NCBI GenBank assembly: GCA_944383035.1
Contig: CALWOE010000008.1
Location: 1-37,878, forward strand
Length of the DNA stretch: 37,878 bases
DNA from: an uncultured Clostridia bacterium
Lineage (GTDB): Bacteria; Bacillota; Clostridia; TANB77; CAG-465
Reading direction: 5' to 3'
A model generated the notes under the pieces. That model saw only the letters and a program-made list of their open reading frames with translations, searched no databases and was not told the DNA's origin. Both the position numbers and the translations under genes were made by a program. Each line of letters begins with the position of its first letter. Positions within the stretch are counted from its first letter, which is position 1. This document shows positions 1,675-37,878 of this stretch, in pieces.

Positions 1675-3600
1675 CTACTCATCATAAGTTATAACTCTTG
1701 TACCATACACTGCACCCCATGGTTCTCCTGCTACTTCTCCTCTTTTTTTATGTATAATTATTTCTGTTAAATTATTTGCACTTTTAAATGTAGCTGAACT
1801 CATAGTTTCTACACTACTTGGTATTTCAACTCTTGTAAGTTTATTACAACTTTGAAAAATACTACTGTTTAAAGTTTTTACTCCATTTGGTAATATAACA
1901 TTTTTTAAAGATGGACAATATGAGATGGCTCTAGATTCAATAGTTTCTATACTGTTTGGTAAATCATCAATATATTCTACATCTTTTTTTACCCAATATA
2001 ATCTTTTTTGAGCTTTATCTACTAAATACTTATCATTTAATAATGTAAATGTTTGATTTTCCTCTGAAACTTCTATATTTTCTACAAAAATTATTGAAGA
2101 TGAAGATATATTTTTAACATTTTTTGGCAAATATAAATAATTAATACTTGATGGGATAGTAGAAAGACCTGTAATTGCTTCTAAACTTTCTGGCAAATCT
2201 ATAGATGTAACAACACCATTTGTAATAAAAGCACCTCTTTTAATTTCCTTTACTCCTTCTTTTATATCTATATCTCCTGTTTTATTACATTTATACAATA
2301 CTTCATAATTTATTGAGTATAAATCATTATCTAAGCAAGTAAAATATTGATTTTTGCTATCCACAACAATTTTATCTATTTTATGAGTACCAAAAGCCAT
2401 TTCTGAACCAATAGTTTTCACACTTGCTGGTATATATATTTCTTTTATTGATGTATAACCATTAAAAGCATTATATTCTATTTTTTCAGTTAAGGTATTA
2501 ATTGTTATACTAGTCGGACTTCCTATTGCTCCTAATAATGTTTTAAAATCTTTACTATACAGACAATTATTTTCAAAAGAAAAATAATCATTTTTACTTA
2601 CATCTAGATTATTTAATTTAGTGCATCCACTAAATGCTCCTGTCTCTATCGTTTTTATAGACGATGGTATGTTTATATATTCTAAATTTTTACATCCAGA
2701 AAAAACATCTTGAGATATAGTAGTTAAATTTTCCGGTAAATTAATACTTATTATAGAATTACAACCAGTAAAACTTTGTGTTTCTATATTTGTTATACTA
2801 TTTGGTAAATTAATATTTGAAAGTTTTGAGCAATAACTAAAACAACCATTTTTTAACTCTTTAATTGTGTTTGATAATTTTATAGTAGTTAAATTTGAAC
2901 ATCTCAGAAATGCATATTCTCCTATAATTTCAACACCATCTTCCATTATTACCTCTTGCAGTGATGTATTATTTGAAAAAGCATTTTTACCTATTTCTTT
3001 TACACTTCCAGGAATAATTACTCTTGTAAGTCCCTCTAAATTATTAAATACTCCACTATCTATTTTTGTTACGTTATATGGTATTCTTACTGTTCCTGTA
3101 CTATCTAGTAAAAGTAAGTTACTATTTGCAGATATTAAAACTCCATCTACTATTTCATATGGGATTATTCCTATTCCTAATTCTTTTGCCCATATTAGTT
3201 TTTGTTCCACATTTCCTTTATAATATAACTCTCCTTTTATTATCTCAAATTCTGAGTAATATCCTTTCTTTGCTGTTGGTATTACATCATATATATCCTT
3301 TTCATTCTCATTTGTTTTGGTATTGTATGTTAATCCATTATCTGCTGCATTTAAACTTTCTATTTCAAACTTTCCTACACTTTGGGCTGCCTTGGTTTGC
3401 ACAAACATCTCAAATTCTTCTTCTATTACTCTTAAATCATTTTTAAATACTGATTCATTTGCTACTCCAAATATTTTTCCATCTGTTATATTGTATAATA
3501 CTGTTGCTACAAGTATAATTATCACTACTATTGTTACTACTAATACTATTAGACTTATTCCCTTTTTAGTATTTTGTTCTTTTTGTTTTAAACTATTCAT
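1675..3600 (-). CDS. Pilin-like surface protein with BspA-type leucine-rich repeats
   Basis: 641 aa. The N-terminus has a short basic leader, then KKG|ISLIVLVVTIVV, a prepilin-type cleavage site after Gly14 followed by a long hydrophobic helix. The usual Glu at mature position 5 is Val. From about residue 165 to the end it is built of BspA/Treponema-type LRR units (patterns such as IGKNAFSNNTSL, IETGAFSGCTKL, LPNSIETIESRA), with a few non-LRR insertions (e.g. FTCLDNDLYS). LRRs of this class usually bind host or partner proteins outside the cell. The start ATG has GGAGG 12 nt upstream. Its only visible promoter is in repeat copy 2, with an intrinsic terminator in between, so expression is probably controlled by attenuation. 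The C-terminal TYDE gives no cell-wall sorting signal. Confidence 0.85.
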   Translation of the reverse strand: MNSLKQKEQNTKKGISLIVLVVTIVVIIILVATVLYNITDGKIFGVANESVFKNDLRVIEEEFEMFVQTKAAQSVGKFEIESLNAADNGLTYNTKTNENEKDIYDVIPTAKKGYYSEFEIIKGELYYKGNVEQKLIWAKELGIGIIPYEIVDGVLISANSNLLLLDSTGTVRIPYNVTKIDSGVFNNLEGLTRVIIPGSVKEIGKNAFSNNTSLQEVIMEDGVEIIGEYAFLRCSNLTTIKLSNTIKELKNGCFSYCSKLSNINLPNSITNIETQSFTGCNSIISINLPENLTTISQDVFSGCKNLEYINIPSSIKTIETGAFSGCTKLNNLDVSKNDYFSFENNCLYSKDFKTLLGAIGSPTSITINTLTEKIEYNAFNGYTSIKEIYIPASVKTIGSEMAFGTHKIDKIVVDSKNQYFTCLDNDLYSINYEVLYKCNKTGDIDIKEGVKEIKRGAFITNGVVTSIDLPESLEAITGLSTIPSSINYLYLPKNVKNISSSSIIFVENIEVSEENQTFTLLNDKYLVDKAQKRLYWVKKDVEYIDDLPNSIETIESRAISYCPSLKNVILPNGVKTLNSSIFQSCNKLTRVEIPSSVETMSSATFKSANNLTEIIIHKKRGEVAGEPWGAVYGTRVITYDE

Positions 3601-3628
3601 ATATCAAAAATTCCTCCTTTTTAGGTGC

Positions 3629-3661
3629 AAAAAACCAATACTAGCTTTATACTAGTACTGG
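3629..3661 (-). terminator. Attenuator terminator upstream of the pilin/BspA gene
   Basis: A 10-bp stem (3661-3652 with 3644-3635, one G-U pair, 7-nt loop) is followed by six T (3634-3629). The coding start is 28 bp further on, too near for another promoter, so transcripts from the promoter at 3819-3848 must read through this structure to reach the gene. It may also end transcription from the coiled-coil gene. Confidence 0.8.
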
Positions 3662-3722
3662 TTTACATTTTTTACATATTTTAACTTATTTTCTTTTTTT
3701 ACTTTACATTTTTTACAAAATT

Positions 3723-3761
3723 TTACGTGTGTGTGTGTGTGTGTGTGTGTAGTATTATCAT
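3723..3761 (-). CDS. His-Thr leader micro-ORF, copy 2 (12 aa)
   Basis: The minus-strand ATG at 3761-3759 has AAAAGGAG (3776-3769) 7 nt upstream. It encodes MIILHTHTHTHT and stops at TAA 3725-3723, straight after (CA)12 (3727-3750). In the frame that would result from losing one CA unit, translation continues for 24 codons and stops at TAG 3654-3652, exactly at the end of the terminator's 5' arm. A third frame (one unit gained) stops after a few codons. A regulatory leader is inferred from position and from conservation with copy 1. Confidence 0.55.
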   Translation of the reverse strand: MIILHTHTHTHT

Positions 3762-3818
3762 ACTTGTACTCCTTTTAGTTTACATATACTTATTTTAATC
3801 ATTTACAATTATATTAAA

Positions 3819-3848
3819 ATTATATATTATTTTACTAAAATTTTTCAA
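3819..3848 (-). promoter_or_regulatory. Sigma-A promoter of repeat copy 2 (pilin/BspA gene)
   Basis: TTGAAA (3848-3843), 18-nt spacer, TATAAT (3824-3819). The -35 lies in GTACTTGAAAAA. The predicted transcript starts about 50 nt before the micro-ORF. Confidence 0.75.
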
Positions 3849-3873
3849 GTACTTTTTCTTATTTTATAACAAA

Positions 3874-37806: not shown

Positions 37807-37878
37807 ATCGAGTAGGGAAATTTAAATTTTTTTCCCTCTCACACCACCGTACATGCCGTTCGGCATACGGCGGTTCAA
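37807..37878 (-). mobile_element. 3' end of a group II intron (domains V and VI), truncated by the window edge
   Basis: Reading the minus strand from 37878, AACCGCCGTATGCC and GGCATGTACGGTGG form the small bulged hairpin typical of domain V, with a CGAA-type loop and a conserved following GTGTGAGAGGG. Next a GGGAAA/TTTCCC hairpin fits domain VI. The intron would end at CTACTCGAT (37807). The rest, including any maturase gene, lies beyond the window. It is co-oriented with radA and about 85 bp upstream of its promoter. Local GC is far above the surroundings, consistent with an acquired element. Confidence 0.7.

Follow-up and report, generated by a model that had tools for sequence, protein, structure and literature searches.

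A slippery AC repeat in a short leader ORF very probably switches a surface-protein gene through a transcription terminator in an uncultured Clostridia bacterium

Introduction

Why should a small ORF with an (AC)n repeat as its body stand, together with its own promoter and a predicted terminator, in front of a gene for a putative surface protein? The question arises on the minus strand of the window, by which we mean the whole 37,878 nt stretch of DNA from an uncultured Clostridia bacterium analysed here. In the opa genes of Neisseria and the lic type genes of Haemophilus, slippage at short repeats shifts the reading frame of the surface gene itself. The window differs from this type in that the repeat sits in a leader ORF that is separate from the surface-protein ORF in all three frames, and it is proposed to act via transcription. 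Judged from sequence and its comparison among relatives, the slippery AC repeat in this tiny leader gene very probably switches the downstream surface protein by controlling the access of ribosomes to the terminator.

A closely similar device is known from Streptococcus gallolyticus. At its pil1 locus, a leader peptide becomes longer through out-of-frame GCAGA repeats, which places its stop codon in or beside the terminator and raises transcription, and mutations of the ATG and of the hairpin had the effects expected from the model (Danne et al. 2014, PMC3894217). The initial annotation of the window had treated a repeat-driven attenuator micro-ORF as something not known before, which is wrong, as it had been shown for pil1/pil3 (Danne et al. 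2014, PMC3894217). The mechanism itself is thus already known, and what is new here is the scale, the repeat units, the lineage and the carriage by phages. Our literature search in open-licence papers found no report of such leaders in uncultured Clostridia.

Results and discussion

Anatomy of the leader

The elements of the leader are compiled in Table 1. The promoter, the Shine-Dalgarno sequence, the ATG, the repeat, the immediately following TAA, the open spacer, the terminator and the surface-protein gene were found base for base where the initial annotation had placed them. Its description of the tract as (CA)12 was right about the repeat and wrong about the unit, since 12 is the number of AC units and only 11 are obtained when counting CA. 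The position of the leader stop relative to the end of the tract depends on the repeat number n and is +4 with 12 units, +14 with 13 units and +75 with 11 or 14 units. Reading the frames in this way reproduced exactly the claimed stop of the 11 and 14 unit versions within the terminator's 5′ arm, and no other class enters the hairpin. This hairpin appears in the fold of the whole window leader; the rule-based terminator scan of the window did not flag it, and the search against Rfam matched no RNA family over the leader. The 641 aa protein encoded downstream matches PF13306 (E 3e-74). At the contig end, positions 37807-37875 of the minus strand match the group II intron family RF00029 of Rfam (49 bits, gathering 40).

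Table 1 Features of the two leader copies within the window, with putative functions as predicted from the sequence.
Feature	Position	Strand	Remarks
Leader promoter, -35 TTGAAA / 18 / -10 TATAAT	3848-3819	-	11/12 consensus matches
Shine-Dalgarno sequence AAAAGGAG of the leader ORF	3776-3769	-
Leader ORF, present (OFF) frame	3761-3723	-	ATG 3761-3759, (AC)12, TAA 3725-3723; peptide MIILHTHTHTHT, then stop
(AC)12 dinucleotide tract, proposed slippage site	3750-3727	-	TRF: 12.0 copies, 100%
Spacer	3726-3652	-	stop-free only with 11 or 14 AC units (n = 2 mod 3, ON frame)
ON-frame stop TAG	3654-3652	-	inside the 5′ arm of the terminator
Predicted intrinsic terminator	3664-3629	-	hairpin AAACCAGTACTAGTATAAAGCTAGTATTGGTTT 3664-3632 (-17.2 kcal/mol), into T6
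Putative controlled gene, 641 aa	3600-1675	-	start 3600; prepilin-like N-terminus and BspA-type leucine-rich repeats
Second leader copy, whole	1-240	-
Second copy, promoter TTGAAA-18-TATAAT	220-191	-	read directly
Second copy, leader ORF	133-95	-	peptide MIVLHTHTHTHT, then stop; (AC)12 at 122-99
Second copy, terminator hairpin	36-5	-	controlled gene lies past the contig end

The leader recurs throughout the genome

In the genome from which the window originates (G000; 1.28 Mb in 71 contigs), the leader is clearly recognizable about 18 times. The copies mostly lie before near-identical BspA genes; the matches, full or partial, are for the most part 77-92% identical, and the promoter motif TTGAAA-18-TATAAT is visible in most copies. 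At least 12 genes share the same N-terminal 139 aa at 91-100% identity, and the leader is present wherever the contig and the search allow. Because the arrangement recurs about 18 times in this genome, and also across the order, it is beyond chance.

Leaders and N-termini are near-identical among these copies and the leucine-rich parts differ, which would fit a leader that serves mainly as a recombination anchor, offering the homology by which copies of the surface genes undergo gene conversion, with the tract being incidental. As the main role we consider this very improbable, because it leaves unexplained four features described below, namely the rule of one open frame, the avoidance of stops, the spacer lengths in steps of three and the swap of the repeat unit; a role as recombination anchor may exist alongside attenuation.

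One copy in this genome, C40 (L051:200-1000) with n = 12, precedes, according to the reading of its sequence, a polysaccharide/capsule-type sugar transferase-like protein instead of BspA, and its spacer sequence is unlike those of the other copies.

Distribution in the genus, the order and the class

Tracts of the type D(AC)8, nearly all of them preceded by T, number 27 in the congener G002, 28 in the congener G011 (deposited as uncultured Clostridium sp. SRR15194757_bin.8) and 51 in the 1.7 Mb genome of the congener G024. T(AC)9 was detected in 63 of the 191 genomes and in 25 of the 39 genera of the order. Elsewhere in the class it was absent from all 114 genomes (among the 118 scanned, two matched, and both belong to the genus of the window).

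Contigs of metagenome-assembled genomes (MAGs) often end in or near the leader repeats, as would be expected if the leaders were an assembly or low-complexity artefact of AT-rich MAGs. The same organized structure is, however, present in assemblies made independently from many species and from phages, and the tract is lacking in all 114 genomes outside the order. These comparative data refute an artefact as the main explanation, and we regard its probability as negligible.

One repeat class reaches the hairpin

Of the 65 genus leaders that bear a terminator, 61 have exactly one repeat class (mod 3) that reaches the hairpin, and none has two. For 45 leaders of other genera, one class reaches the hairpin in 43, two classes in one and no class in one, compared with exactly one class in about 34% when the spacers were shuffled; these counts, with leaders drawn from many genera, include paralogs, which are treated as if independent. 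Both the sequence of the hairpin and the identity of the open class vary between species, while the rule is kept.

The spacers themselves point in the same direction. In G011 they measure 62, 71, 74, 77, 80, 83 or 89 nt, all of which equal 2 mod 3, and the sole exception, 87, shifted together with the edge of the tract. Stops in the open frame were fewer than expected under neutral drift in G011 (2 observed, 7.6 expected, P = 0.0016) and in G000 (0 observed, 3.2 expected, P = 0.012), with paralogs taken as independent in both calculations; in the open frame of G002, the avoidance of stops was not significant. The open-frame pN/pS was not below 1 in G000 and G011; amino-acid changes matched silent ones in frequency in G011 and exceeded them in G000. 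For these two genomes we therefore rejected the idea that the spacer peptide is under selection, and only the openness of the frame is kept. Avoidance of stops combined with an unconstrained peptide is the pattern expected if the presence of the ribosome matters and not the peptide that it makes.

Variation of repeat number and repeat unit

The repeat number varies among paralogs, from 6 to 13 in G000, from 9 to 14 in G011 and from 8 to 20 in G024; the species of the window is represented by a single genome. It also varies among near-identical phage contigs, as found for contigs with LEAV-type leaders from IMG/VR. Over 9,836 bp, a single AC unit is all that distinguishes L305 from L314, two units are the only difference between L307 and L309 over 405 bp, and L307 and L311 differ by three units and 3 mismatches over 1,095 bp. 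A one-unit difference in a single contig could be due to a PCR or assembly error; because the pattern is repeated, assembly error is unlikely to be the whole story.

The distribution of repeat numbers is strongly skewed. Twelve of the 16 tracts of G000 have n = 12, no intact copy in this genome belongs to the ON class, and 23 of the 25 tracts of G002 have n = 11. The ON class accounts for only 3 of the 65 leaders of the genus and 3 of the 45 from other genera, whereas random repeat numbers would give one third. Such numbers lend some weight to a fixed leader, in which the tract length is effectively constant, the terminator keeps the gene low and read-through into the conserved open frame is regulated by another signal, such as ribosomal frameshifting within the repeat. 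We consider this unlikely given the span of 8-20 units in G024 and of 5-19 among tetranucleotide copies and the near-identical phage contigs that are 1-3 units apart; moreover, the exchange of a dinucleotide for a tetranucleotide unit is what selection for slippage predicts. The bias toward OFF fits a repertoire with few of its members expressed, but also a recent homogenization, and the uniformity of G000 at n = 12 could stem from infrequent slippage, from gene conversion in the recent past or from an assembly that shows the majority allele only.

The unit swap itself was observed in the congeners G001 and G027, in which the tract is (ACAT)5-19, encoding Y-I-H-T, within the same architecture. 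Nine of the ten ACAT leaders with a scored hairpin obey the frame rule, and the tenth was scored from a wrong start. This finding bears on the classical alternative, amino-acid attenuation, in which the HTHTHTHT peptide would sense the charging of His- and Thr-tRNAs and a stalled ribosome would remodel the hairpin. As in the attenuators of the his and thr operons, the translated leader is full of His and Thr codons and lies upstream of a terminator. Unlike in those operons, the identity of the codons is not conserved, and the ACAT tracts argue strongly against a His/Thr codon sensor. The window sequence also offers no alternative antiterminator fold, its leader folding no better than shuffled sequences (z -0.45), a ribosome stalled in the tract would be approximately 60 nt away from the hairpin, and the downstream genes encode surface proteins and not biosynthetic enzymes. 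On the basis of the unit swap and the lacking antiterminator we rejected this explanation, which now appears highly improbable; the setting would be given at the window by the repeat number in the DNA and not, as in amino-acid operon attenuators, by tRNA charge.

Proposed mechanism and comparison with the pil loci

With high probability, then, the window element is a phase-variable leader-peptide attenuator. Transcription would start upstream of the small ORF. In two of the three repeat classes the ribosome would stop right past the tract, far short of the terminator, so that the hairpin forms and transcription ends (OFF). Slipped-strand mispairing would shift the repeat number into the third class, in which the ribosome would cross the otherwise neutral spacer and halt in the hairpin, blocking it and allowing the BspA-type gene to be transcribed (ON). 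With its 12 units, the window copy would be OFF, and 11 or 14 units would turn it ON. About 18 such leaders in G000 would make many surface genes switch independently, with most of them OFF at any time.

The anatomy, the occurrence in multiple copies, the frame rule and the variation of the tract in paralogs and related phage contigs are direct observations. From these we infer terminator function, ribosome-dependent read-through, an effect on expression and switching in this species. The earlier proposal that slippage switches the surface gene via translation of the leader gains support from the frame rule, the stop-free spacer, the unit swap and the variable repeat number, with read-through and expression as its predicted part. 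Evasion of immunity or of phages may be the purpose of the switching.

The likeness to pil1/pil3 of S. gallolyticus is extensive. In both cases, a simple repeat lies in a leader ORF and an intrinsic terminator precedes a surface-protein gene (an adhesin operon in S. gallolyticus), the leader ORF has a ribosome binding site and a promoter, the repeat unit is not a multiple of three, and a short OFF-frame peptide is opposed to a longer ON-frame peptide with its stop in or next to the hairpin. The OFF-frame stop of S. gallolyticus lies ~39-49 bp short of the hairpin. The systems differ in the unit, which is the pentanucleotide GCAGA there and AC (in most species) or ACAT (in two congeners) here, in the number of ON classes (two of three there, one of three here, the latter known from sequence alone) and in extent, with two loci of a single species there and, here, 15-51 tracts in each genome of several species and a spread over an order and into phages. 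By its anatomy, the window element would work like the S. gallolyticus device; common descent is not claimed and need not apply.

The mechanism, demonstrated earlier for two pilus loci in a single streptococcus, appears here as the principal wiring of large families of surface proteins in an uncultured order, and also in phage tail genes. This should make a combinatorial ON/OFF repertoire readable from repeat counts in metagenomes, without cultures. The order also represents a natural experiment in the evolution of repeat-driven attenuators, in which the unit changes and the peptide drifts while the frame and the terminator stay.

Leaders with other outputs in the order and in phages

In G024 (L138-L159, L185-L193), nearly all leader copies were read without a convincing terminator. 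An AT-rich hairpin directly follows the tract in many of them, and in every copy whose downstream sequence could be read, one repeat class runs into a stop at +7. Leader tracts without terminator exist also in several other genera of the order, and therefore not every tract works as an attenuator. In other families of the order (L200, L204-L220, L231-L268), a conserved ESLEAV/ETLVAV/TLGAL-like stretch, with DNA close to CCTTGNGGCTGT, stands just before the repeat. In L262, L263, L269, L270, L212, L213, L210 and L216, the tract is fused to a long open frame in one repeat class, an arrangement resembling ordinary coding-frame phase variation with a similar 5′ element. Because in-frame fusion of the tract to the main ORF occurs at some loci of the order, both modes, attenuator and coding-frame, use one kind of 5′ element.

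Whether all this amounts to an order-wide switchboard in small-genome, gut-type Clostridia and their probable phages is, in our judgment, evenly balanced. Such a switchboard would combine one 5′ element, made up of a start, a short peptide and a slippery repeat, with three outputs (terminator opening, translational coupling and direct protein fusion), and each genome would have dozens of surface genes that switch independently of one another and are strongly biased toward OFF.

The leaders of the phage contigs L305, L307, L309 and L311-L314 are of the form M..SLEAV/ETLVAV(HT)n and have no obvious terminator. One repeat class brings their stop into overlap with the start codon of the following gene, as TAATG or ATGATG in L307-type contigs, an arrangement suggestive of translational coupling that is phase-variable. 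The gene after a further phage leader (L303:3380-3979, minus strand) matches tail and tail-fibre families (PHROG 6465, E 2.6e-20); therefore, phages may vary their host-contact proteins in the same way.
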